The notes under the pieces are model-generated. The model ran no database searches and was not told the DNA's origin. It saw nothing but the letters and a program-made list of their open reading frames with translations. From positions 4,836,001 to 4,900,000 of the forward strand of contig NZ_CP150241.1 in assembly GCF_037975235.1 (NCBI RefSeq): a DNA stretch of 64,000 nucleotides. Direction: 5' to 3'. How positions within the stretch are numbered: position 1 is the stretch's first letter; each line of letters starts with the position of its first letter. The translations under genes and the position numbers were made by a program. This document shows, piece after piece, positions 2,057-20,190 of the stretch. The stretch is from Paenibacillus sp. FSL R5-0341. Lineage in GTDB: Bacteria > Bacillota > Bacilli > Paenibacillales > Paenibacillaceae.

Positions 2057-3058
2057 CTAGATGTTAATTGCTTGAATTAAATTACCTAATACAATATTTT
2101 CAGTTGTGTACAAAATATGAATCTCGTCAATAATGCTTTGAAGATCACGTTTATTTCGATTGTACGCATACTTCATAGCAATATTCCGTACTAGTAGGGC
2201 TTCCATCTCAATACTAGTTAATTCATTAATATATTTTTGATGACAAATCCCTTTTTTAGATAGATATATCACCAGTTCTTTAAGAACCCTTTTATGATCC
2301 AGTAATAAGCAGAATGGTAAAATAGTGAACCGAGCTGTATCTCTTTGACAAGCTTCACAAAAATCGACGATCCTTTTATAGACGCTAATTCCAAAATAAT
2401 CATTAGTATCTGTAGAGATAAATATCTTGTAGGTTTCAGACGAATTCCTTGAGAATACATAATCCATAAGGGAGCGGAGCATTAACTTCATATCAAATTT
2501 ATGAATATACTCCTCATTGTATGCTAAAACTCTTGCCCATCGTTTCGAGGCATCCGACAAGAATGATGTCTCAATCTCATCAAATGGTACTTTTATTGCT
2601 TCCAATTGTCTATTTGTTGTATACGTATAGTCATACACATCAAACTGACGCATATTCATATCATAGCCGAATATTAACATGTTGTTAGGGGCATGTTTCC
2701 TTTTGTACGCGTTAGTATGTTTAACAAAATAAGAGTCATAGTTTATATAGACATACTTTCCATTAGCAATGGACGTTTTAATAAAGTTCGGTATAGATGT
2801 AAACTTAGATATATAATCTGAGCTCAAGTGTTGAATAGTTAACCACGGAGCATATGATCTGAACAGAATTGAATCAAAAATATAAAAATCTAGCCAATGG
2901 GGATCTCCATTAAAATCTTTAGCGTAAATCTGTATATAATGATTTAATTGCCATTCAAGATTATTTTTAACGTTTGGAGAAATAGCAAGAGGCAATGCGT
3001 GATGCTTGTAAGTACAGACTAATGGTCTTTCAATCTGTAATTTTTCGATAGCGTTCAT
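2057..3058 (-). CDS. BtrH-like (papain-fold type) putative acyltransferase, copy 1
   Basis: A 333-residue protein, last gene of the minus-strand cluster, clearly homologous to the divergent protein at 19204-20190. Both share a KYVYINYDSYF / RYVYLYVDRYY strand followed by an IFGYD motif. That layout recalls the BtrH N-terminal (C39/papain-like) family, whose founder moves an acyl chain from an acyl carrier protein to an aminoglycoside. A cysteine is present early (LVCTYKHH, residue 15), and a His (KHAPNNML) precedes the IFGYD motif; these are candidate catalytic residues. A free-standing ACP and acyl ligase in the same operon fit the role. The family call rests on recalled motifs only. A GGGGG ribosome site precedes the ATG. 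Confidence 0.5.
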   Translation of the reverse strand: MNAIEKLQIERPLVCTYKHHALPLAISPNVKNNLEWQLNHYIQIYAKDFNGDPHWLDFYIFDSILFRSYAPWLTIQHLSSDYISKFTSIPNFIKTSIANGKYVYINYDSYFVKHTNAYKRKHAPNNMLIFGYDMNMRQFDVYDYTYTTNRQLEAIKVPFDEIETSFLSDASKRWARVLAYNEEYIHKFDMKLMLRSLMDYVFSRNSSETYKIFISTDTNDYFGISVYKRIVDFCEACQRDTARFTILPFCLLLDHKRVLKELVIYLSKKGICHQKYINELTSIEMEALLVRNIAMKYAYNRNKRDLQSIIDEIHILYTTENIVLGNLIQAINI

Positions 3059-3087
3059 AACATTAACCCCCTATTTATTTTTGCTGA

Positions 3088-3870
3088 CTAATTCATACCT
3101 TGGAGTTTATCCCAAACTTCCTTTACTTCCTGAGTTAGACGAGGGTGGCTCACTCTTTTACGGCGTGGAACAAGTTCCTTTAAATATGGAGCTATATCGA
3201 TTCCAATAAAATTAGAAAGCCGATCGTTTTCAATGCCTTCACAAAGACGCTGATATTCAACAACAAGATAACGTTCCTTTGATAAAGCAGTAATCTGCTC
3301 AATAGCTTCGGCATGCCATGAAACCCACTTTTTTAAATTTCCAGTGACCGAAATGGGACGCCATGGGCGATCTCCTTCCCACTCCATTACAGATGAAGCA
3401 ACATCATATGGATCTCGAAACATAAGAATATATTTGGCGTCAGGTACTACGTTGTTAAGATAAGGGAATATCTGAAGATATTCATTATATTTATCTCCCC
3501 ACCTTGTAAAACCTTTATAGCTTTCGGAAACAATTCGCCTCCCTAACTCAAGTTCATTGCCTTGATATCCCTCAGCAACATCAATCGCAACTTCTCGCAG
3601 CACTTTCTCAACCTGATATAAATATCGTTCTACTCCGATTCCACCTGGGACACGGCGTTTCAATGAAAATAATATTTCATCCACACGCAAATGACGATAA
3701 CCAATATCCTTCATAGTGAGCCATCGATGTAAATAATACATCAATTTTCCATTTACGCTAAACATCCCATTATCTACACCAAATGCTTCGCTTAACTTAT
3801 GCGCAAATACTGTCGTCCCAGATCTCTGGAAACCGAGTAAAATTATCGGAAGCGTGCTCTGGTTATTCAT
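3088..3870 (-). CDS. PAPS-dependent sulfotransferase family protein
   Basis: A 260-residue cytosolic enzyme expected to move a sulfuryl group from PAPS onto a hydroxyl or amine. The N-terminal GFQRSGTT (about residues 13-20) is the phosphosulfate-binding loop. ILMFRDPYDVASSV (about 145-160) is the 3'-phosphate-binding segment with the conserved Arg and Ser. Its ATG overlaps the upstream stop (TAATG), so it is translationally coupled to the TIM-barrel isomerase. An APS kinase further up the operon could supply PAPS. The acceptor is unknown; by context it is an intermediate of the cluster product. Confidence 0.8.
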   Translation of the reverse strand: MNNQSTLPIILLGFQRSGTTVFAHKLSEAFGVDNGMFSVNGKLMYYLHRWLTMKDIGYRHLRVDEILFSLKRRVPGGIGVERYLYQVEKVLREVAIDVAEGYQGNELELGRRIVSESYKGFTRWGDKYNEYLQIFPYLNNVVPDAKYILMFRDPYDVASSVMEWEGDRPWRPISVTGNLKKWVSWHAEAIEQITALSKERYLVVEYQRLCEGIENDRLSNFIGIDIAPYLKELVPRRKRVSHPRLTQEVKEVWDKLQGMN

Positions 3871-4718
3871 TAAGATACCTCATTGATATAAGATAACAGT
3901 CGCTGCATACATTCTACAGAAGCTTCATACCCATCCATAGAAAAAGAATCAAACCATGGATTATCCCGTTGTTTTTGGTCAAGCACCCGTCCTTTTCTCC
4001 AATGAGTTTCCAGAGAGACATAACCCTGATAATCATCGTTCTTCAATGTTTGAATGATATTTCGCCATGGAACATCACCATCACCTAGTCTGACGTATTG
4101 ACTCTGACCATCCGGATCTTTAATATGTATGTGCTTAATGAACTCTTTCCCCAAGGTATAATCTTCTGGAAACGGATTCAAGTCTTGACCGGAAAATACC
4201 GAATTACCAGGATCCCAAACAATACCTAATCGGTTATCGGCAACCTCATCTAGGAATTCAAGCATATGCTTTATTGTAGGTGTATTTGTACGCATACCAG
4301 TCTCCACATAAATTTGAATATCATCTGAAACAAGTCCATCAACAATTTGTTTTACAGCTCTTGCAGCTAGCTTAGGTTGTGCTATCCCTTCTCGATAAAA
4401 TGTAAACACCCGAACAAAACCGGAATTTAACAACCGAGCCTGGTCGATAGCTTTTGCCAAAGATTCCCGAGAACTTTCCAGCAATTCATCTGTCGACGGG
4501 AATTCTACTTTAAAACAAGGAGAATCAAAGCCAGCTATATTTAGTCCTGCAGAACGAACGGAATCACGGATCAGCTCTAATTGTTCATTATCTAATTGGT
4601 CCGGACGTGTATTCCAGACGGAACGGACTTCAATGCCATGGAATTTATTTTTCTGAACCGCGTCAATTACTCGATGCAAATCTTGATCTATTTCATCCCC
4701 AATAATAGCTAGTTTCAT
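3870..4718 (-). CDS. Sugar phosphate isomerase/epimerase family TIM barrel
   Basis: A 282-residue xylose-isomerase-like (AP_endonuc_2) TIM barrel. The visible metal-site pattern includes YVETGM (Glu near residue 139), IVWDPGNSVF, HIHIKDPDG and a late YVSLETHW. This is the usual Glu-Asp-His-Glu arrangement of IolE/IolI/hexulose-epimerase-type enzymes. It sits between a second TIM barrel and the sulfotransferase. Together with the Gfo/Idh oxidoreductase it suggests keto-sugar or inosose chemistry, but no specific substrate can be named. An AAGGGGA ribosome site precedes the ATG. Confidence 0.75.
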   Translation of the reverse strand: MKLAIIGDEIDQDLHRVIDAVQKNKFHGIEVRSVWNTRPDQLDNEQLELIRDSVRSAGLNIAGFDSPCFKVEFPSTDELLESSRESLAKAIDQARLLNSGFVRVFTFYREGIAQPKLAARAVKQIVDGLVSDDIQIYVETGMRTNTPTIKHMLEFLDEVADNRLGIVWDPGNSVFSGQDLNPFPEDYTLGKEFIKHIHIKDPDGQSQYVRLGDGDVPWRNIIQTLKNDDYQGYVSLETHWRKGRVLDQKQRDNPWFDSFSMDGYEASVECMQRLLSYINEVS

Positions 4719-4735
4719 TGTTGATTATCCCCTTA

Positions 4736-5458
4736 TTATTCAGATTCTCGTGCTAAGAGCGACTGCAAAACCTTGATATCCTCCACTGCACTTCCTGACC
4801 TAGTTTCAACTGTAACTGAACAATTCGTATCCGCCAGCTTCTGCAAAATGAGATAAGTTCTATTTATGTCAGTCTCGGAGAGTGGAACGTGTATAGTTTC
4901 ATATGGGTTATCCCAATTAAATCCTTTAGTTTGTACCCCAGAAATGAAGCGCATTAGACTCGTCGTAGCTTCGAGAGGGTCCTTAGAAATACATGCAAGT
5001 CCCAAAGTATCCAACAATACGCGGGTACCAAGCAATTCACTTATTCGAACGAGTTCCTCTACACCACAGTTTCCTTTGTGAGTCTCCACCCAGATCCTAT
5101 CCATCCCTCCTGCAATGCTTGCTAACACTTGCACTTGCTTCTGTGTTGATTCAATCTGCTGGATTGTAGTACATCCGGGTTTGGAAAAAACTTTTAAAGG
5201 AATATCAGCATAAGGAGCTATTGATTTGATGAGAGTTTCTTTATCAAATCTGTCATCGCCAAGTGTAAAACTTATACCAATAAAAGCAATGTCAATACCC
5301 GATTGCCTTAAGGGAGTAAGGCCCTCCTCTTCCCAAGAGTGCCCTTTTCCCACCCTTAGGTCGACCGTATTGCAACCAGTCTCATTTAATTTTTGAATTA
5401 ACTCGTTTGCAGTGAGATTCGGCATACTACCAGAAGATAAACCGATTCGAAATGACAT
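4736..5458 (-). CDS. Second TIM-barrel (sugar phosphate isomerase/epimerase-like) protein
   Basis: A 240-residue protein. It starts MSFRIGLSSGSMPNLTANEL and shows repeated beta-alpha units: TVDLRVGKGHSW, IAFIGISFTLGDD, RIWVETHKGN, RVLLDTLG, and a final SVTVETRSGS. ETHKGN and ETRSGS supply possible metal-binding acids, but the pattern is weaker than in its neighbour. The frame stays open upstream to 5533, but the ATG at 5458 is chosen because it overlaps the stop of the oxidoreductase gene (TAATG). A redox-linked isomerase role beside the Gfo/Idh enzyme is inference. Confidence 0.65.
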   Translation of the reverse strand: MSFRIGLSSGSMPNLTANELIQKLNETGCNTVDLRVGKGHSWEEEGLTPLRQSGIDIAFIGISFTLGDDRFDKETLIKSIAPYADIPLKVFSKPGCTTIQQIESTQKQVQVLASIAGGMDRIWVETHKGNCGVEELVRISELLGTRVLLDTLGLACISKDPLEATTSLMRFISGVQTKGFNWDNPYETIHVPLSETDINRTYLILQKLADTNCSVTVETRSGSAVEDIKVLQSLLARESE

Positions 5459-6387
5459 TAAATATGTATGCCCCCATTCATCGCGATTTGTTCTAATAAA
5501 CGTGTAACTCCACGTCCACCCTGTAAATGACAACGTTCCGGTTGTTCTTTATTTATTATAGAAGAGGCGAAATCCATATAAAGTTGTTTTCGCATCTCAT
5601 GCGTAGATTCGACAGGATACTGTCTTAGATTACCTTTGTATTCTAAGGCAGACCTTCCATCTTCGATAGTTAGACGAATATCTGGTCCATACAACGACAA
5701 GCGCTCTTTACGTGCTTCTGCTTCGCATGTAACAACAAATGACATTGCGGCTCCAGTGGAAAATTCAATTGTTCCTACCGTGCGTAAGTCAATACCAGGA
5801 GAAAACTCTCTCCTTCCTGCTTGATGAAACGAAATAGGTTCTCCAAGCATTTGGCAGGCCAAATCTAAATAATGTATTCCAAGATGAGCTGTAATCCCAC
5901 CAAAAGATAAAGCAGGATCTTGTCGCCAGTCATTGAAGTATCTGTTTATGTCACGCGGCCGCGAAACTTCCAAAATAGCTGTTGTTTGATGATCCCAGTT
6001 AACGTTAAATGCTTCCTCAGGAAGTCGATATCTATGCTGAAACATGATTCCGATGGTTTGGTTCGCATCGTTTGCAGCTTTCAATAACTGATCAAGTTCT
6101 TTTTCCGTCGTACATGGTGGTTTTTCGAGAAGGACTGACTTTCCTGCATCCAATGCTTCGAATGCCTTATTCGCTCTTCCGCCAGGTGGGAGGCACAATG
6201 CTATAGCGTTTACATCAGGATTGGATAGTAACTCCTCCCACGAGGTAAATCGATAGACACTATCTGTATCGACTATCGGATTTTTTTCGTAAATACCATA
6301 AAGTGAAGCGTGATTCATATCCAATAGAGTCTTTGCATGTTGACGTCCTGCAGAACCATAGCCAACGATAGCTATATTTACCGCCAT
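5458..6387 (-). CDS. Gfo/Idh/MocA family NAD(P)-dependent oxidoreductase
   Basis: A 309-residue dehydrogenase, slightly short for the family. The N-terminal Rossmann motif IAIVGYGSAGRQH binds NAD(P). NAIALCLPPGGRANKA and VLLEKPPCTTEKEL carry the family EKP signature with its catalytic-type Lys. FGGITAHLGIHYLDLACQML supplies the GxxxDxGxHxxD-like segment with the active-site His. Members oxidise or reduce sugar, inositol or amino-sugar hydroxyls. It is coupled to the following TIM-barrel gene by a TAATG overlap. The substrate is not predictable. Confidence 0.85.
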   Translation of the reverse strand: MAVNIAIVGYGSAGRQHAKTLLDMNHASLYGIYEKNPIVDTDSVYRFTSWEELLSNPDVNAIALCLPPGGRANKAFEALDAGKSVLLEKPPCTTEKELDQLLKAANDANQTIGIMFQHRYRLPEEAFNVNWDHQTTAILEVSRPRDINRYFNDWRQDPALSFGGITAHLGIHYLDLACQMLGEPISFHQAGRREFSPGIDLRTVGTIEFSTGAAMSFVVTCEAEARKERLSLYGPDIRLTIEDGRSALEYKGNLRQYPVESTHEMRKQLYMDFASSIINKEQPERCHLQGGRGVTRLLEQIAMNGGIHI

Positions 6388-6435
6388 ATCTTAAAGACCT
6401 CCTTTATAATTGAAACGAATTTTAATTTTCAATCT

Positions 6436-8163
6436 CTAACCAACTAAATACAACTGACGGTAGCTACCCATTTGGCTTATCAATTCCTCATGTGTACCCT
6501 CCTCCACCACTTGCCCCCGTTCCATAACAATAATTTTATCGGATTGAACAATTGTAGAAAGACGATGAGCAATAATGATTACTGTTCTACTTTGTGATAG
6601 GGTTTGAATAATATCCTGAATTTTTGATTCATTTTCTGAGTCTAAAGCTGAAGTTGCTTCGTCTAGTACAAAGATGGGAGAAGGTTTTAGTATAGCTCTT
6701 GCGATTCCGACTCTTTGACGTTGTCCACCAGAAAGTCTTATTCCCTTCTCTCCTACCTTAGTATCATATTGATCTGGCAAGGTAGTGATGTAATCATGAA
6801 TTTGGGAAAGCTTTGCAACCTCAATAATCTCTTGATCGCTAGCGTCTAGACGTCCCATTCGTATGTTCTCTCTTATGGTGGTATTAAATAGGTAAGTATC
6901 TTGAGGAACATATGCAATTAAATCTCTTAGATCTTTATGATTATATTGACTAATAGATTTTCCGAATAATAAAATATCTCCAGAATCTGTATCGTAGAAA
7001 CGCATCAACAATTTAGCTAAGGTGCTTTTTCCAGAGCCACTTGTTCCAACCAAAGCTATACTTTGATTCTTAGAGATAGATGTATTAACATTGTCTAAGA
7101 TTTTTTTATCTCCATAGCTAAAAGTTACACTAATAAAATTAATGATACATTCAGTTAGCTCTTCATATTGTCTTTCCGATCTAGATACTTGTTCTTCTCC
7201 TTCAATTTGAAGAGAAAGCATTTTTAGAACTCTTTCAGTGCCAGCTATACTATTCTGGAGTTGTACGATTAATCTGCCTAAGGTGTTAAACATCATACTC
7301 ACACCAGCATATAGTTGCATGATTGCAACTACATTACCGAGAGAAGTAAGGTTGTTCACTACCATATAAGCACTAATAAACAGTAGAGTCGTGAAATTTA
7401 ACCAATGAATGAGTGTATTAAATTGTTGTTGTTTTGCTCCTTCATGAGTTGCCTTCATGCCTAAGTTGACCAAAACACTGTTTGTCTTTTCAAATTTCGG
7501 ATAAATGAAGTTAGCATAGAATTTAAATACTGACAGACCATGGAAAACCTCTAACATCACTTTAGCAAGCACAGCATTATTTTCCGATTGTTCTTTGGCT
7601 ATCTTTTTTCCGATACGTGCAAACTTAGAGTTCACAGCTGTAGCGAGTAACGCAAAGATAATTAAGAAAACACTAATTCTCCAATCAAGAATCATCATGA
7701 AAATAGCAGAATACATACCTGTCATTACAGATGTAATTACATTACGTAAGTGCCCTCCATATACCATCTCCATTAAAAACTGATCATGATTTAGAGTAGA
7801 TAGTGCGTCCCCGCTGTGGGTCTTATCAAAATAGTCGACGGGCACCAGTTGTATTTGTCGAAATATTTTTTTCTTCACATCAGTCATAGTCCTTCTAATA
7901 CTTGTTCGAAAAGTGTAACTGAAAAATACATACATCGTTACGAGCAATATCATACCCGAACCAAGTATATACACGCTGGTACGAAGCAAATTGCTTTGGC
8001 CATTGACAGAGAAATCGATTACGAACTTCATCCCGAAAGCTAAGATAACAGGTACAATCGCGTGAGTCATACTTAGTCCAAATAAACCAATTAAATACCA
8101 GCCAATTCTAGGCCGCATAAATGCATACAACTGCGAGAATACACTTCGATTTTTTTGTTCCAT
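6436..8163 (-). CDS. ABC exporter half-transporter, permease plus ATPase (subunit 2)
   Basis: A 575-residue half-transporter with six predicted membrane helices in residues about 15-310 and a C-terminal nucleotide-binding domain. Walker A is GTSGSGKST, the signature LSGGQRQRVGIARA, Walker B IFVLDEATSALD with its catalytic Glu, and the H-loop IIAHRLSTI. All ATPase motifs are canonical. Its start overlaps the stop of the companion half-transporter (TAATG), so the two probably form a heterodimer that exports the cluster product or gives the producer self-protection. Direction is inferred from the MsbA/LmrA-type architecture. Confidence 0.9.
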   Translation of the reverse strand: MEQKNRSVFSQLYAFMRPRIGWYLIGLFGLSMTHAIVPVILAFGMKFVIDFSVNGQSNLLRTSVYILGSGMILLVTMYVFFSYTFRTSIRRTMTDVKKKIFRQIQLVPVDYFDKTHSGDALSTLNHDQFLMEMVYGGHLRNVITSVMTGMYSAIFMMILDWRISVFLIIFALLATAVNSKFARIGKKIAKEQSENNAVLAKVMLEVFHGLSVFKFYANFIYPKFEKTNSVLVNLGMKATHEGAKQQQFNTLIHWLNFTTLLFISAYMVVNNLTSLGNVVAIMQLYAGVSMMFNTLGRLIVQLQNSIAGTERVLKMLSLQIEGEEQVSRSERQYEELTECIINFISVTFSYGDKKILDNVNTSISKNQSIALVGTSGSGKSTLAKLLMRFYDTDSGDILLFGKSISQYNHKDLRDLIAYVPQDTYLFNTTIRENIRMGRLDASDQEIIEVAKLSQIHDYITTLPDQYDTKVGEKGIRLSGGQRQRVGIARAILKPSPIFVLDEATSALDSENESKIQDIIQTLSQSRTVIIIAHRLSTIVQSDKIIVMERGQVVEEGTHEELISQMGSYRQLYLVG

Positions 8164-9944
8164 TACTGTATAACCCTCTTTAACTGAGTGGATTGTTTTT
8201 CAAATAAATGATAATAAACTCCTCTTTGCAGAATGAGTTCTTCATGAGACCCTTTTTCCACCAGATGTCCGTTTTGAAGTACGAATATGGAGTTTACATA
8301 TGTAATAGATGAAAATCGATGCGAAATAATAATGACATTCTTTCCTTCAAGTTTGGTGAGAATATTATGAAAAATTTGGCTTTCATTCTCGGAGTCTAAG
8401 GCAGAGGTTGACTCATCCATAATAATGAGATCGGAATCTTTTAAGAGCGCTCTTGCAATACAAATCCTTTGTTTTTGTCCTCCCGATAGCCCGTTTCCGG
8501 ACTCAGATAAATACGTGTTGTAACCCTCTGGAAGACTCATAATAAAATCATGAGCATTGGATAATTTGCATGCTTCCATGATGTCTTTAAGTGAAGCATC
8601 AGGTTTCCCACATGCGATATTTTCCAAAATTGTGCCTGAGAACAAATAAGCGTCCTGAGAAATGTATGCAACCCGACTTCTTAATGACTCTAAATTCCAT
8701 TGCTTTAGATCGCGTCCCATTACTTTAAGAGACCCCTTGTAATCATCGTAAAATCCACAGAGTAGCTTAGCTAGTGTACTCTTACCACTCCCACTTTCGC
8801 CTACCAAAGCAATTTTCTCACCTTTTTCAATCTGTAGAGACAATTCATTTAACCTTATTTGAGCATCATATCCAAAGGTAAGCCGACTAGCAGAAATTAA
8901 ATCGTCTTCTATTTCTGTCATATCACTATCACCGGTAGTTCTCTCTTTAGTTTGATTGACCACTTCAAGTAAACGTTGACATGCGCCTTGCATACTGTAA
9001 GTATCAATTATCATCTCAGGAAGAGTACCCAAAAATCCGGTTAACCTTCTCAGTATTTGTAAAAAAGCTAACAGTTCTCCGGCACTCATAGAACCTTGTG
9101 AGGTGAGAAATCCTCCATAACTTATGCAAATTAACATAGGAATAAAATCAACGAAATAATTCATTGCTCCCATCCAAGATTTTCTTCTTTCAAATATAAT
9201 TTTCTTTTCAAGTGCTCTATCAATGTAGCTTGCATACTTCTTAAACCAATGATTTTCCAGATTATACGATTTAACAATTTCTCTGGCACGTATACTATCT
9301 AAAACGATTGTGTTTGACTTAGACACAATTTCTTGCTCTTTTTTGCTCAAAGATTGTGTAGAATTTTTAAATATTCTGGTTATTAAAAGGATAACTGGGG
9401 TAATTGAAATACTGATTAAAAAGAGCTTCCAATCAAGTACTAACAAATAAATAGCAAAGCCTATTGAAAGAATTAGAGTTCTTGATAAATTGATGAATGT
9501 AGAACTTAAATAATTACTTACAACTTGTAAGTTATTTGTAATTACTGATGAGACCTTACCTGAGTCAAATCTTTCAGCATAAGAAATGGGCATGCCGGAA
9601 ATTTGTTTAGCAATATAAATCCTTAATTTCTTCAGTGTTTGAACTGAAAATTTACCACTAAAAGTAACCTCCATGTACTCCACAAATATAGCGATTACAA
9701 TAAATAGAACTATATATATTAAAAAATCGAAAATTTCACTCATTTGCCCACCTAAGGTAAGGTCAATCATCTGCTGAATAACGTAGGCCTCTGAAATCCC
9801 CACAAAGACCTTAGCAATCATAAAAAGCATACAAATGGCTAGAGTGAACCATTCCAAAAAGCATACGGAGTAAAAATTACGAATCGGGCGTTCCTTCAAA
9901 GAATGATTCTCCCCTTCTGAAAAAGGAGACCATACAATGGTCAC
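8163..9944 (-). CDS. ABC exporter half-transporter, permease plus ATPase (subunit 1)
   Basis: A 593-residue half-transporter with about six membrane helices (residues about 25-330) and a C-terminal ATPase. Walker A is GESGSGKST, the signature LSGGQKQRICIARAL, Walker B LIIMDESTSALD, and the H-loop IISHRFSSI. The catalytic Glu and His are present, so both halves should be hydrolysis-competent, unlike many heterodimeric exporters with one dead site. The GTG start has AAGG directly before it and hence poor spacing, so the true start may lie a few codons further in. It precedes its partner by overlap. Confidence 0.88.
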   Translation of the reverse strand: MTIVWSPFSEGENHSLKERPIRNFYSVCFLEWFTLAICMLFMIAKVFVGISEAYVIQQMIDLTLGGQMSEIFDFLIYIVLFIVIAIFVEYMEVTFSGKFSVQTLKKLRIYIAKQISGMPISYAERFDSGKVSSVITNNLQVVSNYLSSTFINLSRTLILSIGFAIYLLVLDWKLFLISISITPVILLITRIFKNSTQSLSKKEQEIVSKSNTIVLDSIRAREIVKSYNLENHWFKKYASYIDRALEKKIIFERRKSWMGAMNYFVDFIPMLICISYGGFLTSQGSMSAGELLAFLQILRRLTGFLGTLPEMIIDTYSMQGACQRLLEVVNQTKERTTGDSDMTEIEDDLISASRLTFGYDAQIRLNELSLQIEKGEKIALVGESGSGKSTLAKLLCGFYDDYKGSLKVMGRDLKQWNLESLRSRVAYISQDAYLFSGTILENIACGKPDASLKDIMEACKLSNAHDFIMSLPEGYNTYLSESGNGLSGGQKQRICIARALLKDSDLIIMDESTSALDSENESQIFHNILTKLEGKNVIIISHRFSSITYVNSIFVLQNGHLVEKGSHEELILQRGVYYHLFEKQSTQLKRVIQ

Positions 9945-9956
9945 CTTAACAATAAA

Positions 9957-11458: not shown

Positions 11459-11474
11459 TTTCAATACCCCTCTT

Positions 11475-12944: not shown

Positions 12945-12947
12945 AAA

Positions 12948-13319
12948 TCAGATTAACCACTCTAAAAATTCCAACCGATTTTCAAATGGATCATTTACAT
13001 AAAATCTAATTGCTCCCTCAAGTGGCTCGTCATCTTTAGTCTTTATCCCAGAACGCTCTATATGTTCTTTTAACTCCAATACATTTTTTACGTGAAAGGC
13101 AGGATGGGCCTTTTTAGCGGATACAAAATTTTCTTGTACTCCAATATGCAATTGATGTTGACCACATTGAAACCATACCCCTCCACGCTTCTGTAAATTT
13201 ACTGGCTTTTCAATCTCCTGCATACCTAGGACTTTGCCAAAGAATTGACGAGCTTGCTCCTCACATTGTTCGGGTGCTGCGAGTTGTACATGATCAATTC
13301 CAATAAAATTATAATTCAT
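12948..13319 (-). CDS. VOC/glyoxalase superfamily protein
   Basis: A 123-residue single-domain vicinal-oxygen-chelate protein. It opens NFIGIDHVQLAAPEQCEE, has a middle QLHIGVQENF and an end NPFENRLEFLEW. His10 and Glu near 118 (RLEFLEW) are the usual metal ligands. Families include glyoxalases, epimerases, dioxygenases and drug-binding proteins, so it may catalyse a step or bind the product for immunity. A strong GAGGAGG ribosome site precedes the ATG. It sits between the Ldh2-type dehydrogenase and the acyl ligase. Confidence 0.75.
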   Translation of the reverse strand: MNYNFIGIDHVQLAAPEQCEEQARQFFGKVLGMQEIEKPVNLQKRGGVWFQCGQHQLHIGVQENFVSAKKAHPAFHVKNVLELKEHIERSGIKTKDDEPLEGAIRFYVNDPFENRLEFLEWLI

Positions 13320-13408
13320 AGTAGATCCTCCTCGTATTTGTTTAATTAATACACGCTTTAGTCTGACAGTAGCTACTCTATATGTTTATTCACAAGCCCA
13401 GTCTCAAG

Positions 13409-14458
13409 CTATATCAGGCTAAGCTGTAACTGGTCATTAATTAACTTTAATTTATTGTACGTGCCCACTGCTATCGGAATACCTTCTTTCCTATGCTCCA
13501 TTGCTCTTTTCTCTTTTTCTCCAGGTATCAGTATCTCTTCCACCCCATCAGCTTTCAAACTGTTCTTAATACTTTCTAGCCAATCTTGGACTCTTCCATT
13601 GAACTCTTCCAATGGAGCAATCTTGGAAACATCCAACGCAATAAAGGTATGACAAGATTCAGAAATCTTATCAGCATGTACTCTCTGACGCTTTACATTC
13701 ACGGAGTACGAACCACCACTTAAAACCCCTGTAAGTAAATCTACGACCATTCCAATACCAAACCCTTTATGACCACCGAAAGGAAGTACAACTCCCCCAT
13801 CGATAAACTCTTGTGGATGAGAAGCAGGCTGTCCTGCAGCATTAAGTGCCCAAGTCCTAGGCATCTCATTAATTCCTTTCTCAGCTAGATCTCTAATTTT
13901 CCCACAAGCCACCTCTCCGGTAGCCATATCCAGCACAAATGGAATACCTCCATCATTCGGTAAAGCAACGGATAGAGCATTATTCCCAAGAACAGCTTCT
14001 TTCCCTCCCCAAGCAGCCACATTAGGCCCAGAATTTGTTAGAACAATTCCTAGTTGGTTTTCACTCGCAATCATCCTAGTATAGTATCCTAACATTCCAA
14101 TATGATTGCTATTTCTAACCATAACAATCGATATACCATTCTCATTTGCTTGATTTATGGCATCTGTTGCAGCCTGACAAGCCGTGACTGGTCCTATACC
14201 ACCATCAGCATCTATAATTTTCATGAACGTTGATTCAAAGATGACCTGTTTTTTTGGATTTTTAAGAATCCCCCCTTGTTCAATTCTACGCAGGTAGGTT
14301 GGCAGTAGATCTACACCATGGGAATCCATCCCCATTAAATTTGCATTAATCAATACGTTTGCTACAATACCTGACTCATCCTTCTCAATACCTGAAGCGA
14401 TAAGTGCAGATACGACAAGCTCCGTTAATTCTTCAATGCACATGGTTTTTGTATTCAT
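13409..14458 (-). CDS. Ldh2 family malate/L-lactate/ureidoglycolate-type dehydrogenase
   Basis: A 349-residue NAD(P)-dependent 2-hydroxyacid dehydrogenase of the non-Rossmann Ldh2 (YlbC/ComC) family. MGMDSHGVDLLPTYL has the catalytic-type His. NSNHIGMLGYYTRM and PFVLDMATGEVACGKI are the conserved NAD-binding and active-site segments, and PFGGHKGFGIGMVVDLL is the C-terminal signature. ATG 14458 is preferred (GAGG eight bases upstream) over the earlier in-frame start at 14473. In the cluster it could make the 2-hydroxy or 2-keto acid that is activated onto the ACP. Sulfolactate dehydrogenase (ComC) is also in this family, which is suggestive next to sulfur genes but not proven. Confidence 0.85.
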   Translation of the reverse strand: MNTKTMCIEELTELVVSALIASGIEKDESGIVANVLINANLMGMDSHGVDLLPTYLRRIEQGGILKNPKKQVIFESTFMKIIDADGGIGPVTACQAATDAINQANENGISIVMVRNSNHIGMLGYYTRMIASENQLGIVLTNSGPNVAAWGGKEAVLGNNALSVALPNDGGIPFVLDMATGEVACGKIRDLAEKGINEMPRTWALNAAGQPASHPQEFIDGGVVLPFGGHKGFGIGMVVDLLTGVLSGGSYSVNVKRQRVHADKISESCHTFIALDVSKIAPLEEFNGRVQDWLESIKNSLKADGVEEILIPGEKEKRAMEHRKEGIPIAVGTYNKLKLINDQLQLSLI

Positions 14459-14469
14459 AAGAACGATCC

Positions 14470-15288
14470 TCATTTCATATTTTTAAGCTGTATCTCACGT
14501 TTTTGGATTCTTCCAAGAAGATGAATGGCATTTAAACTCCAGTTTAAAGATGCTATCCAAAAAGTCTTTCCAATTGCACTCTGTTTCACTGCCGCTAGAT
14601 TTCTCACTGAATCTCTAAGACTGACTTGCTTTGGGTGGAACTTCCCTGAATTGTAGGCTTCAATTACAGCCTTCATCAAACCTTTGCTATTGCGGTGTAG
14701 TATAATTAATTCTGGAATGAAATGAATTTTAAAACCCTGATTTTCGATATCTATAACAAAGTTATTATCTCCACCACTTCCCAACGAATTAAAACCATTC
14801 ACTTTTTTAAATAATGTAGTCCATACAGCAGAATTACCACCAGAGAAAAACTGGACAGGTTGCTCACGTGAAACACTCAAATATCTCATATCATACCTTG
14901 CTTGTCGTGCAGCAGATACGATACCACTATCAAAACGTAATACTCTTCCCGTAATTCCTCCTCTATTTTCGAGGAGCTCTCTTTTAATTACGGATAACCA
15001 GTCCGCTGTGGGGACAGCGTCATCATCCAAAAATGCGATTACGTTAGACTCAACTGACATTCCGGCAATGTTACGACAAATAGCAGCTCCCTTTGGTCTT
15101 TCGTTACGAATCACCCTAATCGGTAAATTAAAACTCTCCACTAATGGACTAATTGTTGTTTCAGAACCGTCATCAACCACAATAATTTCATGGAGTAACT
15201 TTAAATCATTATCTTGAATTCCTTTAATACACCGATGCAGATCTTGAAGACGATCTTGAGTCGGAATTATCACTGTAATTCGAACCAT
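14470..15288 (-). CDS. Glycosyltransferase family 2
   Basis: A 272-residue GT-A fold transferase. RITVIIPTQDRLQDL starts the nucleotide-binding domain, EIIVVDDGSE has the first acidic pair, and VIAFLDDDAVPTADWL carries the DxD-type metal/UDP site. FSGGNSAVWTTLFKKVNGF is the acceptor-side motif. It uses a nucleotide sugar, plausibly the uronic acid form made by the dehydrogenase at the operon start. It overlaps the deacetylase gene by 19 bases and has a GGAGGGA ribosome site. No membrane helix is obvious, so it is probably cytosolic. Confidence 0.85.
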   Translation of the reverse strand: MVRITVIIPTQDRLQDLHRCIKGIQDNDLKLLHEIIVVDDGSETTISPLVESFNLPIRVIRNERPKGAAICRNIAGMSVESNVIAFLDDDAVPTADWLSVIKRELLENRGGITGRVLRFDSGIVSAARQARYDMRYLSVSREQPVQFFSGGNSAVWTTLFKKVNGFNSLGSGGDNNFVIDIENQGFKIHFIPELIILHRNSKGLMKAVIEAYNSGKFHPKQVSLRDSVRNLAAVKQSAIGKTFWIASLNWSLNAIHLLGRIQKREIQLKNMK

Positions 15289-15869
15289 TGTTCCCTCCAG
15301 CTTTTAGCCATTGCTGACCAGATATTCATTTGTCCTGTTGGTACGTACGTACGACGTATATTATTTGGTACTTCATTCCAGGGATTGGGAGGTGCTTTAA
15401 CTGTCCCGTAAGCTAAACATCCTTTCGGAAAATCCAGTGCTTGTTGAGGAATGAATCCGTATGGGTATGCAAAATGTATAGGATTTTCGGGATTACTGCA
15501 GTGTTCTTTTACTTTTTTTATGGACTCTTCCATCTGCCATTGAGAAGTTTGCATTGAAATCTCATGCATTTTCGGATGGGATAAGGTGTGTGCACCAAGT
15601 ACATGTCCAGCATTTTCTATTTCAACAAGGTCTCTCCAATTCATAAAAAGATGTGAATCGTCCGAATTGTTACAATCCTCACTATGAGACTCCATATTAT
15701 TGGTAATAACAAAAAACATTGCCTTTACTCCGAATTGCTCCAATATAGGTACTGCATATTCAATATTATCCTTATATCCATCATCAAACGTTATGAGAAC
15801 AGACGGTTCTTTGGGTAACCATTTATCGCACTCATAGGATACAATCTTTGGATCCACACTTCCTCCCAC
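15270..15869 (-). CDS. Polysaccharide deacetylase (NodB-like) family protein, 5' end disturbed
   Basis: The open frame from the first canonical start (GTG at 15869) gives 199 residues holding the NodB core. VLITFDDGYKDN has the catalytic Asp pair, VLGAHTLSHPKM the H-x3-H metal site, and HFAYPYGF the motif-3 region. However, the same frame continues upstream without interruption to 16026 and encodes recognisable family sequence (LVLYYHHIHPKIDHY). That extension ends at an in-frame TAA right after ATG AGC ATT AGT. The gene is therefore either a nonsense-interrupted copy, a rare ATT-start gene, or shortened to this GTG. It would remove N- or O-acetyl groups from a sugar in the pathway. Confidence 0.7.
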   Translation of the reverse strand: MGGSVDPKIVSYECDKWLPKEPSVLITFDDGYKDNIEYAVPILEQFGVKAMFFVITNNMESHSEDCNNSDDSHLFMNWRDLVEIENAGHVLGAHTLSHPKMHEISMQTSQWQMEESIKKVKEHCSNPENPIHFAYPYGFIPQQALDFPKGCLAYGTVKAPPNPWNEVPNNIRRTYVPTGQMNIWSAMAKSWREQWFELQ

Positions 15870-16040
15870 TTCATACAGAACAAGATCAAGTGAACGAGCA
15901 AATTGGTCAGGTGTTAGTGATGTATAATGATCAATTTTCGGATGAATGTGGTGATAATATAAAACAAGTGGCCAACCAGGCGCTGAACCAATGCTTGGAT
16001 CAAAAATATGAAACCAACTCCCCCATTAACTAATGCTCAT
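15870..16040 (-). other. In-frame 5' extension of the deacetylase with a premature stop
   Basis: Reading down from the ATG at 16040, which overlaps the upstream stop as ATGA, gives Met-Ser-Ile-Ser-TAA. The frame then goes on for 52 sense codons into the deacetylase core. The segment includes VLYYHHIHPKID, the usual first strand of this family, so the frame was once coding. A GGGGGAG sequence at 16018-16024 lies ten bases before an in-frame ATT (16007). Nonsense mutation, readthrough and ATT initiation all remain possible. Confidence 0.65.
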
Positions 16041-16498
16041 TTCTTAAGAACTAACCGTCCACTCTCAAGCCGAAAAGTAGTATCAAGGCAGTCTTTATAT
16101 CCCTCCAAATTGGATGAGAGTAGAATTGTTGTTCGATTTGCAGATCGCCCTTTATTGAGAACCAATGATATATTTTCACTATTAATAGAAGTCTCTGCAT
16201 CGTCAATGATGAGCAAACCAAAATTTTTCTGCTCCAGGGCCATCAACAGTGGAGAAATATTGGAATGACGTTTAGAACCGTTTATTAATATGCTTTTAAA
16301 TTCACCTTTCTGTACCTCTCCATACTTCGGTTGTAGATCTCCTACTAATACAGACGCAAGAGTTGATTTACCGGATTTAGAATCACCTTCAATTCCTATT
16401 ACCTTGCCTGCTGAAACATTAAGGTTTAGAGCTCTCAGTACAACCACTTCTCCACCTTTCTTGCCGTATGAAACTACGATATCTCTCGCAAGCAACAC
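16037..16498 (-). CDS. Miniature ABC-type ATPase-like protein
   Basis: A 153-residue protein resembling a shortened ABC nucleotide-binding domain. It has an N-terminal antenna strand (LLARDIVVSYGKKGGE), a Walker A GDSKSGKST (about residues 38-46), a Walker B-like LLIIDDAETSI, and an H-loop-like region TTILLSSNLEG without the usual His. The helical domain and LSGGQ signature are absent, the Q-loop is not evident, and the Walker B glutamate is replaced by Asp. Full ABC ATPases run about 220-240 residues. GTG start with GGAGGGA eight bases upstream. The function is unknown; a regulatory or kinase-like role beside APS kinase is possible. Confidence 0.6.
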   Translation of the reverse strand: MLLARDIVVSYGKKGGEVVVLRALNLNVSAGKVIGIEGDSKSGKSTLASVLVGDLQPKYGEVQKGEFKSILINGSKRHSNISPLLMALEQKNFGLLIIDDAETSINSENISLVLNKGRSANRTTILLSSNLEGYKDCLDTTFRLESGRLVLKK

Positions 16499-16513
16499 TG
16501 ATATCCCTCCAAT

Positions 16514-17092
16514 TTAGGATGATAAACTGGTACTATGTTTTGCTTCTGTATGAACATCTTGAAAAGTTATATAATGACGTTGTTCCAATAATGCCACGAC
16601 TTTCATGGCACATTTCTCAACTGTTTCTAAATCTGTTCTTAGTACCAAATCAGCATTATTTGGACGCTCATAAGGATCATTAACTCCAGTAAAAGATTCA
16701 ATTTCACCTGCAATTGCCTTTTTATAAAGACCTTTAACATCCCGTTTAACTAACTCAGAGAGTGGTGCATCGACGAAAACTTCGATAAATTCCCCAATCT
16801 CTTGACGTGCCATTTCTCTCATGTTCTTATATGGAGAAATAAATAAAGCTAACGTAACAATTTGATTTTTAGTTAATAGTTTAGCGACAAATGAGATTCG
16901 CTCAATATTTTTGATTCTATCCTCTTTGGAGAACCCTAGGTCTTTGCATAACGAACTACGAACAACGTCTCCATCCAGTGTTTCAACTGCAATCCCTCGA
17001 TCTTGAAGTATCCCAGTAACATATGAAGCTATCGTAGTTTTTCCTGCACCGGAAAGACCGGTAAACCATACTGTCACCCCGCGTTGTGACAT
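16514..17092 (-). CDS. cysC: Adenylylsulfate (APS) kinase
   Basis: A 192-residue enzyme phosphorylating APS to PAPS. The P-loop is WFTGLSGAGKTT (about residues 9-20). VETLDGDVVRSSL is the APS-binding DGD loop, and LGFSKEDRIKNIERI is the family signature with FSxxDRxxNIxRI. It is of normal length. No ATP sulfurylase, PAPS reductase or sulfite reductase gene is near, so it is not in an assimilation operon. With the sulfotransferase 13 kb downstream in the same operon it more likely feeds product sulfation. APS would have to come from the host sulfurylase. Confidence 0.9.
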   Translation of the reverse strand: MSQRGVTVWFTGLSGAGKTTIASYVTGILQDRGIAVETLDGDVVRSSLCKDLGFSKEDRIKNIERISFVAKLLTKNQIVTLALFISPYKNMREMARQEIGEFIEVFVDAPLSELVKRDVKGLYKKAIAGEIESFTGVNDPYERPNNADLVLRTDLETVEKCAMKVVALLEQRHYITFQDVHTEAKHSTSLSS

Positions 17093-17110
17093 TTAATATC
17101 CCTCCAATAA

Positions 17111-18472
17111 TTAAAGAAGTATAATTTTCTCCCTATTCTCCATTACATTTTTCGTTGCATTTCGAGTATCTATGATTATCGGGGCATATTTAACAACGTT
17201 GTCATAGTCTATAAAACTATGATCTGTAACAATGACAACTGCATCTAAATTTTCCAAAACGTTTTCGTTCAATTCAACAGAATAAAGCTTGTTTAGACCA
17301 GACCTGTAATCGAATTGAACACTTGCTATGTTTGGGTCATGATATATCACTGAGGCTCCTCCACTATAGAGCAATTCTATTATTTTTAGTGAAGAAGACT
17401 CTCGGTAATCTGCAATATTTTTTTTGTACGCCACTCCAAGAACTAATACACGAGCATCACGTAACGGCTTTCCCCTATTATTTAAGGCTTTAATCGTCTT
17501 ATCGATAACGAAATAAGGCATTCTTGAATTCACATCGCTAGCTAGTTCTACAAATTTCACCGGAAAATCGTATTCCTTGGCCTTCCACGCTAAATAGTGA
17601 GGATCTATGGGAATACAGTGACCTCCTATCCCTGGACCAGGATAGAACTCTTGCAATCCATAAGGTTTAGTGAATGCAGCTTCGAGCATTTCCCAAACAT
17701 TGATACCCATTCGATCACATAGCAAAGTAATTTCATTCACCAAGCCAATGTTGACCATCCTGTAAGTGTTCTCATATACCTTTACCATTTCTGCAACAAG
17801 TGCAGATGATACTGGAACAACTATTGCCACTGATTCAAAAAATGCTTGTGCTATTTTCGTGCAAACTGATGTGCTTCCACCAACAACTTTAGGGACATTC
17901 GAACGAGTATAATTAATATTTCCAAAATCAACTCGTTCTGGCGAGTGTGCTAAGAAAAAATCAACCCCTACACGAAAGCCCGTTTTTTCCAAGCAAGGCA
18001 AAATCACCTCGTCCGTTGTCCCCGGATATGTAGTGCTTTCCAATATAATTAACTGTCCAGAATGTAGGAAACCAGCAATCTTCTCCGTTACACTTCTAAT
18101 AATTGAAATATCGGGTTCTTTATTAATTGATAATGGTGTCGGGACACAGATAATTACGATGTCCGCATCTTTTAAAACTTGAAAATCAGAAGTTCCAATG
18201 ATTCTCTTTTCTCTAACTAAACTAGAAAGTTCATCAGTGGATACGTCTTCAATATAACTAATTCCTAATTGGATCATTTCAATTCTTTTCTGGTCATCTT
18301 CTAGACCCCATACAGTGAATCCAGCCTTAGAAAGTTGCACAGCAAGTGTGAGCCCAATGTAGCCAATTCCAATTATTGCTACATTCGCGCTTTTTTTTTC
18401 GATTTTGGTGGATAGTTCATATGCAATCGAATTCATATCCTCCAATAAAGCTTGTGCTGTATAATCTCTCAA
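17111..18472 (-). CDS. Nucleotide sugar dehydrogenase (UDP-glucose/UDP-HexNAc 6-dehydrogenase family)
   Basis: A 453-residue enzyme that oxidises C6 of a nucleotide sugar to the uronate using two NAD. The Rossmann motif is IIGIGYIGLTLA (about residues 33-44). ESTTYPGTTDE lies in the first domain, KVYENTYRMVNI carries the conserved Lys and Asn, and GPGIGGHCIPIDP has the catalytic Cys286. The pattern is closer to the WecC/WbpA/TviB HexNAc group than to TuaD-type UDP-glucose dehydrogenase, but this is not decisive. The TTG start has an AGAGGGG ribosome site ten bases upstream. It is the first gene of the minus-strand operon. Confidence 0.88.
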   Translation of the reverse strand: MRDYTAQALLEDMNSIAYELSTKIEKKSANVAIIGIGYIGLTLAVQLSKAGFTVWGLEDDQKRIEMIQLGISYIEDVSTDELSSLVREKRIIGTSDFQVLKDADIVIICVPTPLSINKEPDISIIRSVTEKIAGFLHSGQLIILESTTYPGTTDEVILPCLEKTGFRVGVDFFLAHSPERVDFGNINYTRSNVPKVVGGSTSVCTKIAQAFFESVAIVVPVSSALVAEMVKVYENTYRMVNIGLVNEITLLCDRMGINVWEMLEAAFTKPYGLQEFYPGPGIGGHCIPIDPHYLAWKAKEYDFPVKFVELASDVNSRMPYFVIDKTIKALNNRGKPLRDARVLVLGVAYKKNIADYRESSSLKIIELLYSGGASVIYHDPNIASVQFDYRSGLNKLYSVELNENVLENLDAVVIVTDHSFIDYDNVVKYAPIIIDTRNATKNVMENREKIILL

Positions 18473-19203
18473 CCCCTGTGACGCCCCTCTCCGTTAATGC
18501 AGTAAAGTATCAATACAAAAAAACACATTCAAAATTAGCACGTTAAACTACATTCATACTAGATTTGTGAATTTGATAGATTAACATCTCGATACATTAA
18601 TACCAAAAAAAACGCTTACAAAATAGTGGGCTTCTTACTAAGTTAAATACATTATCATTACCACAAAAAATATCACAAATATTCTCTGTTATGTTAAGTC
18701 ATGAAGGCGATTACATGATGTAGCATATAGCATCTCTTATGTCGAAGTAAGGGGAAATTTGTAGAAAAGAAAAAAATCTTGTGATTAATTTTACTGATAC
18801 TTCACAAAAAAGCGTTTGATACGAACATGTTACAAGAAACATTTAATATATTTAATCAACAAAAAGATGATTTCTTCCAATTCACTTCAAAATATTGACT
18901 AAATTGAGAATGAGGTTATTATGTAATTTAACGTAATTTACAATGATAGCATCACCCATATTAAAACGTACTCAACCAGAATAAAGTCTAATTTTTTGAT
19001 TACGAAATGGAGCAACTACATGTTCAAAACTGTTAAATTAGTAGGTTTTAAAGCATTCTATGTTATGTAATCCCCATACTGAATTCAAAAAAGAAGAGCA
19101 GATCAGGAATGTCACTTACAGATCTATTCGCCAATTCGCAACTTTAATTTTAATTCTTTTGTCAAACAGGAATTCTTTTATTAGATACAAAGGAGCGGGT
19201 AAC
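18473..19203. promoter_or_regulatory. AT-rich divergent intergenic region of the cluster with a plus-strand promoter
   Basis: This 731-base gap separates the minus-strand operon from the divergent BtrH-like gene and must hold both promoters. A good plus-strand promoter is TTGACT (18895-18900), 16-base spacer, TATTAT (18917-18922). It would give a leader of roughly 275 bases before the ATG at 19204. The minus-strand promoter is not clear to me. No reading frame or RNA element is recognised here. Confidence 0.5.
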
Positions 19204-20190
19204 ATGTCTTCAAAAAAGTTATTCATGAATGATAATCCATTGCTAAATACTTTCAATACATATGCTAGTGTGCTATCCATTATTAGCAGAGATAATACTA
19301 ATATCTCACCTTGGTTATATAATAACTTTATCCAAATTCGTTACGTACATGATTGGAATACTTATTTTTTTGACAACCATCATCATATTTTCGATAATTG
19401 TCCATGGATCAATCATCATGTGATTCCTGGAACAATTATAAAGAATAAATGGACCTCTTTACATGAATTCATTATTGATGCAATTAACGAATCGCGTTAT
19501 GTGTATCTATATGTTGATCGCTACTATATACCGGCTTCAAAAGCCTATCAAAAAAATCACAATTGGCATGAAATATTTATTTTCGGGTATGATCTAGAGA
19601 AGAGTACCTTTCATGTAGCGGACAACATACAAGAAGGAAAATATATCCATACCGAATGCACGTTTAGCGAATTAGATGAAGGCTATAATGCTTTGAACTC
19701 GGACAACGAATTCTTTCAGAACGTCCATTTATTGAGCATAAAAGAAGAGCATGAGTACAAATTTAATTTACAGCAAATAGCCTTAACATTAGAAAATTAC
19801 GTATACTCCAAACCTACAATTGATATGTCATTTAAAGAAGAATCGACATTTGGAATAGGTGCTTTAAATCTAACTATAGAAGCTGCCGTTAACTACGATC
19901 AATGTAGTTTTCGTTTCGATAAAAGAGCATTCCATCTATTTTGGGAACACAAAAAAATGATGATCCTACGGTTAGAGTATATGTACCAATCTTCATTAAT
20001 CCCTAATGGGTTAGAGTTAATCAATAACTACAAAGAGTTAGAATCGAGCTACTTGATGTTAAGAAATTTAGTTATCAAGTACAACATAACTAACAAAAAT
20101 ACTTTACGCCAACAAATTATCGAAATCTTTAAAAGCAATATTAACAAGGAAAAAGAAGTTATATACAATATACTTTGTGAAATACAATGA
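19204..20190 (+). CDS. BtrH-like (papain-fold type) protein, copy 2
   Basis: A 328-residue paralog of the protein at 2057-3058, divergently transcribed at the other end of the cluster. Conserved blocks are RYVYLYVDRYYIP, IFIFGYDLEKSTF and a C-terminal helical region. At the position of Cys15 in copy 1 this protein has Asn (PLLNTF versus PLVCTY), and at the IFGYD strand it has WHEIFIF where copy 1 has PNNMLIF. The two may therefore differ in catalytic competence or share a split active site. ATG 19204 follows an AAAGGAG ribosome site; an in-frame ATG at 19060 has none and was not used. Role unknown; partner or acyltransferase is inference. Confidence 0.5.
   Translation: MSSKKLFMNDNPLLNTFNTYASVLSIISRDNTNISPWLYNNFIQIRYVHDWNTYFFDNHHHIFDNCPWINHHVIPGTIIKNKWTSLHEFIIDAINESRYVYLYVDRYYIPASKAYQKNHNWHEIFIFGYDLEKSTFHVADNIQEGKYIHTECTFSELDEGYNALNSDNEFFQNVHLLSIKEEHEYKFNLQQIALTLENYVYSKPTIDMSFKEESTFGIGALNLTIEAAVNYDQCSFRFDKRAFHLFWEHKKMMILRLEYMYQSSLIPNGLELINNYKELESSYLMLRNLVIKYNITNKNTLRQQIIEIFKSNINKEKEVIYNILCEIQ

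Follow-up and report, generated by a model that had tools for sequence, protein, structure and literature searches.

Which compound would be assembled by a block of 18 genes that brings together a free-standing acyl carrier protein (ACP), two acid ligases, sugar-modifying and sulfation enzymes, two half-transporters, and two proteins resembling BtrH of butirosin biosynthesis? Such a block lies in contig NZ_CP150241.1 of Paenibacillus sp. FSL R5-0341 (GCF_037975235.1), within the stretch analyzed here (positions 4,836,001 to 4,900,000; 64,000 nt), which is referred to as the window and supplies all coordinates below. Judged from its sequence, the 18.5-kb block seems to encode the synthesis of a sulfated and acylated sugar compound by a route that is apparently undescribed. 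On balance, we lean towards the reading that this island is a non-canonical thiotemplated cluster, in which an amino-sugar scaffold would receive an ACP-bound acid and the compound would be sulfated and exported.

The island (about 1848-20393) consists of 17 co-directional genes and a divergent one, as the preliminary description had it. Seventeen open reading frames (ORFs) occupy the minus strand between 2057 and 18472, and the divergent ORF is listed at 19060-20190. With the listed starts, intergenic gaps across the 17 genes range from -76 to +167 bases, and 10 of the 16 gaps do not exceed 15 bases. The G+C content is 0.367 within the island and 0.457 in the remaining window. When window positions 1-24000 were compared by blastn with the same slot in three genomes of the genus (G032, G070, and G001, the last from the same species), homology on the left extended as far as 1844-1847 and on the right resumed at 20379-20394, and the slot was filled by different DNA of 2.6 to 8.6 kb; for a fourth genome, G011, the right flank alone was visible in the compared stretch. 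The transfer proposed earlier from AT-richness thus agrees with the breaks of homology at the borders, and a recent gain of the island is supported. The island sulfotransferase was not found in any of 74 further genomes of the genus that were searched; in G001, no BtrH-like match was found, and the PaaK-like ligase of another genome, G052, used as the query gave no match at 1e-18. A search of 5.8 billion proteins with the PaaK-like ligase of the island yielded no relative above 33% identity among the best 120 of 861 listed. No plasmid record matched this ligase at 1e-20, and a plasmid origin was rejected on that ground. Repeats were found within neither border stretch, each being searched separately and not one against the other, and scans for promoters (57 against a shuffled mean of 69.0) and terminators (12 against 9.5, standard deviation 3.1) revealed no excess. 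The features of the island are the following (ABC, ATP-binding cassette; APS, adenosine 5'-phosphosulfate):

1848..20393, no strand: strain-specific island; delimited by the blastn homology breaks relative to G001, G032, and G070, with G+C contrast
2057..3058, minus: BtrH1, BtrH-like protein, 333 aa; Asn replaces the catalytic His, no Cys at the site
3088..3870, minus: sulfotransferase, 260 aa; PF13469, 54.3 bits (cut-off 27); motifs GFQRSGTT and RDP by direct reading
3870..4718, minus: TIM barrel b, 282 aa; AP_endonuc_2, PF01261, 113 bits
4736..5458, minus: TIM-barrel-like protein a, about 240 aa; no Pfam match, a weak assignment by reading of the sequence
5458..6387, minus: Gfo/Idh/MocA oxidoreductase, 309 aa; 62.3 bits
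6436..8163, minus: ABC half-transporter 2, MsbA-like, 575 aa; family scans
8163..9944, minus: ABC half-transporter 1, MsbA-like, 593 aa; family scans
9957..11186, minus: PaaK-like adenylate-forming ligase, 409 aa; assigned by relatives, NCBIfam, and tree, Pfam giving no match (E<=0.01)
11186..11464, minus: free-standing ACP, 92 aa; PF00550, 41.9 bits (cut-off 20.8); GLNSID attachment motif
11475..12944, minus: ANL acyl ligase, 489 aa; PF00501, 174.6 bits
12948..13319, minus: VOC/glyoxalase-fold protein, 123 aa; PF00903, 29.9 bits (cut-off 20.6)
13409..14473, minus: Ldh2-family 2-hydroxyacid dehydrogenase, 354 aa; PF02615, 352.6 bits
14470..15288, minus: GT2 glycosyltransferase, 272 aa; PF00535, 73.8 bits
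15270..16022, minus: CE4 (NodB-type) deacetylase; PF01522, 91.8 bits; listed ORF begins at 15869
16037..16498, minus: ABC-ATPase-like fragment, 153 aa; PF00005, 32.9 bits, profile positions 1-49 of 137
16514..17092, minus: APS kinase, 192 aa; PF01583, 202.6 bits (cut-off 21.1)
17111..18472, minus: UDP-HexNAc-type 6-dehydrogenase, 453 aa; GGHCIPID motif; 4r16, 223 bits
19204..20190, plus: BtrH2, BtrH-like protein, 328 aa; CcbD/CtaG/AziU3 fold, His122 and Asp140 present, no catalytic Cys

The Pfam and NCBIfam scores bear out the enzyme families named in the preliminary description, among them the sulfotransferase, the APS kinase, Ldh_2, and the ANL ligase. The ACP and the ANL ligase, encoded by adjacent genes, exceed the cut-offs of PF00550 and PF00501, a pairing of free carrier protein and adenylating ligase that would mark the island as thiotemplated. 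Pfam scans of the 18 proteins, the largest of which has 593 aa, found neither condensation nor ketosynthase domains, in agreement with the earlier statement that a polyketide synthase (PKS) or nonribosomal peptide synthetase (NRPS) core is absent. The ligase-ACP core is, by gene content, not unique to the strain and recurs with other tailoring genes: the ANL-ACP-PaaK arrangement, often accompanied by ABC half-transporters and BtrH-like genes, was observed in 13 other Paenibacillaceae genomes, in which the tailoring genes differ. The combination of enzymes, described earlier as unfamiliar, is so in part: no close match was found, as the distribution of the sulfotransferase illustrates, whereas the ligase-ACP core is shared with relatives.

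A PaaK tree with 27 rows places in one part those 15 that have both an ANL and an ACP gene within 10 kb (the window and 14 rows from the 13 genomes); L130, which has an ANL gene and no ACP nearby, falls in the same part. This trait requires 2 changes on the tree, compared with a mean of 9.1 after shuffling, and none of the 500 shuffles was as low. The split from the long forms has a support of 81/90 and the grouping of the window row with G052 a support of 91/90; some rows are long. A BtrH-like gene lies within 10 kb in 9 of the 15 rows. Full-length half-transporters (540-680 aa) were found at 12 of 15 listed PaaK loci (counted with L130 and with L029 standing for G052); the remaining 10 PaaK loci have none, and one of the 20 controls has them. 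Among the 20 PaaK-anchored regions, which represent 28 listed places, 10 contain an ANL gene, 9 an ACP gene, and 4 a BtrH-like gene. The BtrH-anchored sample comprised 55 genes with 20-kb regions, chosen by hand from the match list, with some genomes repeated, L056 included, and seven flank loci left out, and 20 control regions at one fixed coordinate. A free ACP was encoded near 32 of the 55 BtrH-like genes and in none of the controls (P=1.7e-6); the association persisted after grouping at 60% identity (14/33 groups, P=3.7e-4) and extended to ANL genes (25/55, P=6.8e-5). In six of eight loci with a comparable flank, the cluster stretch, delimited by eye, is lower in G+C content than the rest of its 20 kb.

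The predicted structure of BtrH2 (mean confidence, pLDDT, 91.5) matches CcbD, CtaG, and AziU3, and over its whole chain it shows the papain-like domain and C-terminal helical part common to these proteins. Fold comparison alone was effective in this case, since sequences of the BtrH family gave nothing convincing against solved structures (best E 0.031, in helical parts). BtrH1 and BtrH2 share 27% identity over 319 columns. With PF14399 (BtrH_N), one of the two scored 28.0 bits and the other 17.9, both below the cut-off of 29.7, and each matched its second half only (profile positions 77-134 and 80-133 of 134), so that neither carries the full domain above the cut-off. BtrH1 also passed the TBK1_CCD1 coiled-coil model (26.2 versus 25.9), an unrelated model whose match was taken as spurious. 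A single relative of BtrH1 was found, P0122 of Paenibacillus phyllosphaerae (29%). The catalytic cysteine site was taken to correspond to C11 of CtaG and C19 of CcbD, the residues mutated according to structure entry titles. At this site, where the first helix begins, BtrH2 has Asn (N18), and it keeps the catalytic His (H122) and the acidic residue (D140). We aligned 71 family members: the two proteins of the window and those encoded by 280-460-aa ORFs at the retrieved loci. A cysteine occupies the site, as [FL][SND]C, in 5 of them (L081, L087, L095, L132, and L134) and is lacking by alignment in 66, while four others and BtrH1 have a cysteine within 8 residues of the site that does not fit this motif; the His is conserved in 67/71 and the Asp in 55/71. 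The window proteins are thus members of a family that largely lacks the cysteine, and acyl transfer, if any, would require another mechanism. What had been called BtrH-like proteins are structural kin of enzymes acting on carrier-bound substrates, and without the catalytic cysteine BtrH1 and BtrH2 cannot simply be called BtrH-type acyltransferases.

We infer the substrates, the order of steps, the product, and the role of each ligase as follows. The UDP-HexNAc dehydrogenase would form UDP-N-acetylhexosaminuronate, the GT2 enzyme would transfer the sugar, the Gfo/Idh oxidoreductase and TIM barrels would remodel the sugar part, and the CE4 deacetylase would free an amine. Ldh2, perhaps together with the VOC protein, may supply a 2-hydroxy or 2-oxo acid, which the ANL ligase would load onto the ACP. 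BtrH2, perhaps paired with BtrH1, would then acylate the amine from the ACP, with His assisting a direct attack and no cysteine acyl-enzyme being formed, and the PaaK-like ligase may activate a second acid or make an ester. Finally, the APS kinase would provide 3'-phosphoadenosine 5'-phosphosulfate (PAPS), the sulfotransferase would sulfate the compound, and the two half-transporters would export it.

With respect to the sugar, the dehydrogenase scored 223 bits against the solved UDP-ManNAcA dehydrogenase 4r16 and 205 against Cap5O, compared with 120 bits for the best chain named UDP-glucose dehydrogenase, and UDP-HexNAc models were on top in NCBIfam. The product it points to is an N-acetylhexosaminuronate rather than plain glucuronate, so the uronate formation proposed earlier is upheld by the dehydrogenase family and altered in kind. 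Plain glucuronate formation was rejected as outscored by UDP-HexNAc dehydrogenases, with CalS8 (146 bits) in between. The best NCBIfam model for the 272-aa GT2 enzyme is MftF. No structural relative was found by sequence search for TIM barrel a, and no solved relative at 1e-6 for TIM barrel b. The motifs that we take to characterize the CE4, GT2, ANL, ACP, PaaK, and sulfotransferase families appear complete by reading. As for support functions, the APS kinase passes its models, and the source genome holds one further full-length copy (G000:C1:1975635) and one partial match, a complete CysN, and three ACPS-family matches. The Sat-type ATP sulfurylase was seen solely as a short piece with an internal stop (G000:C1:5681119-5681322), whereas CysN is complete.

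Several gene starts were reconsidered. BtrH2 more likely starts at ATG 19204 (328 aa, with AAAGGAG upstream) than at the listed 19060. For TIM barrel a, ATG 5458 is the likelier start, which overlaps the stop codon of the Gfo/Idh gene. Beyond the listed GTG, the deacetylase frame stays open for some 50 codons upstream, to about 16022, and contains no ATG, GTG, or TTG there; an ATT start after GGGGGAG is possible in this extension (15869-16022). The ATPase fragment (16037-16498), counted among the 17 genes, has a Walker A motif, and a signature motif was not seen.

The tailoring genes around the core vary among the related clusters. G052 encodes a LysA-type decarboxylase homologue, an AsnRS-like protein, PhyH, an aldo-keto reductase, and a kinase; G315, a TIM barrel and an amino acid-[carrier protein] ligase homologue, the latter under the cut-off of its model; G108, Ldh2, a radical SAM protein, and a Gfo/Idh match below cut-off; G237, a carbamoyltransferase; and G286 and G294, thymidylate-synthase homologues. 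In P. phyllosphaerae, radical SAM-like and further genes adjoin the BtrH and ACP genes (by-eye reading). G032, of the same genus, combines BtrH-PaaK-ANL-ACP with an aminotransferase, an APS kinase detected by phmmer, a sulfotransferase of family PF19798, and an ABC-2 exporter; thus, two clusters of this core, G032 and the island, have sulfation genes, with sulfotransferases of different families.

Further loci with BtrH-like genes were noted in passing. G136 (L033/L049) has BtrH-like genes, half-transporters, a free ACP, an adenylating enzyme, and an APS kinase; ectoine genes and CysQ were read there by eye, and a sulfotransferase was not recognized. An ACP-ANL-BtrH type of cluster recurs across Paenibacillaceae (L077, L081, L083, L086-L089, L091, L094, and L095) and continues with sugar epimerase-like, ATP-grasp-like, two radical SAM-like, and ABC-2 genes (functions by eye, L086); in L094 the ACP is located elsewhere, and a similar cluster occurs in P. 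phyllosphaerae (L056). Two Paenibacillus plasmids larger than 500 kb carry BtrH-like genes (22 and 29% identity), one adjoining NRPS genes and one adjoining genes for two carrier proteins, two adenylating enzymes, a decarboxylase, and ABC proteins. The latter set, together with a P450, accompanies the BtrH-like gene in L160 (NZ_CP054609.1, a 509-kb plasmid of Paenibacillus cellulosilyticus).

The logic inferred for the island resembles that of lincosamide or closthioamide assembly. Lincosamide synthetase uses a stand-alone adenylating enzyme and a carrier protein fused to LmbN or CcbZ (PMC4351081), and a cysteine-protease-like condensing enzyme, with a Cys-His-Glu triad in CcbD, joins the acyl group to an amino sugar (PMC12945683). 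The island likewise has a stand-alone adenylating enzyme and carrier protein and, in BtrH2, the CcbD fold; it differs in the missing cysteine of BtrH2, in encoding the carrier as a separate gene, and in adding a PaaK ligase and sulfation. Closthioamide (cta) assembly employs carrier proteins with an acyl-adenylating ligase and the CtaG transferase and no NRPS (PMC6772006); the island shares the carrier protein, the acyl-adenylating ligase, a CtaG-fold protein, and the lack of NRPS, whereas it has one carrier protein instead of two and BtrH-like proteins without the cysteine. Pfam scans of the 18 proteins recognized no ATP-grasp protein, CtaC-type thioamide synthetase, or decarboxylase. With butirosin BtrH the island shares a partial BtrH_N match and an ACP and ligase in the cluster, and it differs in that the first half of the domain is unmatched and scores remain below the Pfam cut-off. 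AziU2-U3 of azinomycin biosynthesis, which acts in sulfate elimination, resembles the island in its fold, in the presence of two related proteins, and in their company with a sulfotransferase and APS kinase, although its sequence identity to BtrH2 is just 9-10%.

Nod factor synthesis combines GT2, a NodB-type deacetylase, ACP, sulfotransferase, APS kinase, and ABC export. The deacetylation, acylation, sulfation, and export steps are reminiscent of those predicted for the island, which adds extra ligases. Among the matches of the 18 proteins, NodA was listed neither in Pfam-A (E<=0.01) nor in NCBIfam (E<=0.001; best 25 rows each for the ANL ligase, the ATPase fragment, and the transporters), and the deacetylase scored 33.7 with the NodB equivalog model (cut-off 240), PF01522 showing the family only. 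Petrobactin (asb) synthesis offers another parallel, with an ANL ligase, a free ACP, and TIM-barrel enzymes. The ACP scored 39.5 with the AsbD model of NCBIfam (cut-off 100), IucA/IucC matches were absent from Pfam scans of the 18 proteins, and a petrobactin-type reading of the TIM barrels found no support in the AsbD score or in the solved-structure search for TIM barrel b.

Several observations weigh against ACP-dependent acylation of an amino sugar as the function of the island. The matches of BtrH2 to its fold relatives have 8-10% identity and a root-mean-square deviation (rmsd) of 3.9-5.5 A, and those from Foldseek, with AziU2-U3 as the top match, a TM score of 0.46-0.59 and an rmsd of 6.1-8.7 A; AziU3, one of the three fold relatives, is not known to form amides. 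The first 65 residues of BtrH2 contain no cysteine, its cysteines lying solely at 66, 152, 234, and 325. In BtrH1, Cys15 is not at the site and is Val in P0122, and the catalytic His is replaced by Asn. The sugar genes are linked to the core in this island only, and sulfation genes occur at the core here, in G032, and perhaps in G136; of the 55 BtrH-anchored regions, one holds an APS kinase and none a relative of the window sulfotransferase. PaaK genes are not enriched near BtrH-like genes (4/55 versus 0/20, P=0.57), nor are ABC ATPases of any kind a marker (10 and 26 of 55 versus 3 and 9 of 20). Relatives of BtrH2 exist at 84 and 87% identity, and since no PaaK between 100 and 33% is listed, BtrH2 can occur without this PaaK.

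These results give room to other explanations. The key ester or amide might be made from an acyl-adenylate by the PaaK-like ligase, with the BtrH-like proteins merely binding or orienting the carrier-bound substrate, which we regard as somewhat unlikely. The missing cysteines of both BtrH-like proteins would fit, as would the ANL-ACP-PaaK loci in which no BtrH-like gene was detected (L127, L129, L131, L133, and L138), and the idea keeps its place because enzymes of the PaaK family can act without CoA: XsbC is assigned a cyclization and likened to the ester-forming NatL2 and BomJ (PMC10098953). It is countered by PaaK-less clusters in which BtrH-like genes also adjoin ACP genes and by the His retained in 67 of the 71 members, unlike a plain scaffold. 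Alternatively, the sulfate may be a leaving group, the sulfotransferase activating a hydroxyl of a carrier-bound intermediate and BtrH1/BtrH2, in the manner of AziU2/AziU3, closing an aziridine-type ring. Such a displacement would explain both the lack of a cysteine nucleophile and the presence of two BtrH-like proteins. That AziU2-U3 is the top Foldseek match and is not known to be a condensing enzyme tempers our confidence in acyl transfer to an amino sugar; we hold ring closure to be unlikely, given that the BtrH-like protein of the other sulfation cluster, G032 (L134), retains the cysteine and that most cysteine-free members have no sulfation gene near them.

It is similarly improbable that a sugar-sulfation operon and a separate small BtrH/ligase system were joined by chance in a hot slot. 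The variability of the slot, with other DNA in G001, G032, and G070, speaks for this, as does the contrast between close relatives of BtrH2 and none listed for PaaK. However, the 17 genes form one near-continuous co-directional run with the core in its middle, and G032 likewise has an APS kinase and a sulfotransferase beside a BtrH-PaaK-ANL-ACP core. The GT2 enzyme, UDP-HexNAc dehydrogenase, deacetylase, sulfotransferase, and MsbA-like half-transporters would also suit a cell-surface polysaccharide or glycolipid locus instead of a small-molecule pathway, and some PaaK relatives lie in what by eye seem to be exopolysaccharide loci (among L135-L146). We consider a surface locus quite unlikely, as Pfam scans of the 18 proteins revealed no Wzx, Wzy, priming transferase, or capsule family, a free ACP and two ligases would be unusual for such loci, and the window PaaK groups with ACP/ANL-linked forms and not with the long ones, a split whose support is not strong.

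A broader proposal may also be made, which we advance tentatively and hold to be possible but doubtful. The cysteine-free BtrH-like proteins would constitute a large, unrecognized family using His-assisted direct attack on carrier-bound substrates, a reaction like that of the condensation domain of NRPSs, with a papain-type fold in its place. The family, the ANL-ACP-PaaK core, and paired half-transporters would jointly characterize a class of natural product clusters in Paenibacillaceae that lack NRPSs and differ mainly in the scaffold being modified; the island would be a sulfated or sulfate-activated amino-uronate member.

Outside the island, the minus strand at 42667-44318 has overlapping genes for a RiboL-PSP-HEPN protein (PF18735, 43 bits) and a ParA-like ATPase, in an AT-rich stretch at 42-45 kb; the two are possibly a two-gene defence or mobile pair.

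Carrier-protein-based, NRPS-free assembly is already known from closthioamide, the lincosamides, and butirosin. In the open-licence literature, no description was found of the ANL-ACP-PaaK core with half-transporters, of the cysteine-free family, or of their joining with sugar and sulfate genes. If the proposed reading is true, the combination of ANL-ACP-PaaK, half-transporters, and BtrH-like genes would provide a search handle for clusters that finders keyed to NRPS and PKS genes may miss, and it would raise the enzymological question of whether a papain-fold enzyme can act on carrier-bound substrates without its cysteine. The island itself would be a Gram-positive example, compact in size, that apparently combines acylation on a carrier with PAPS-dependent sulfation.

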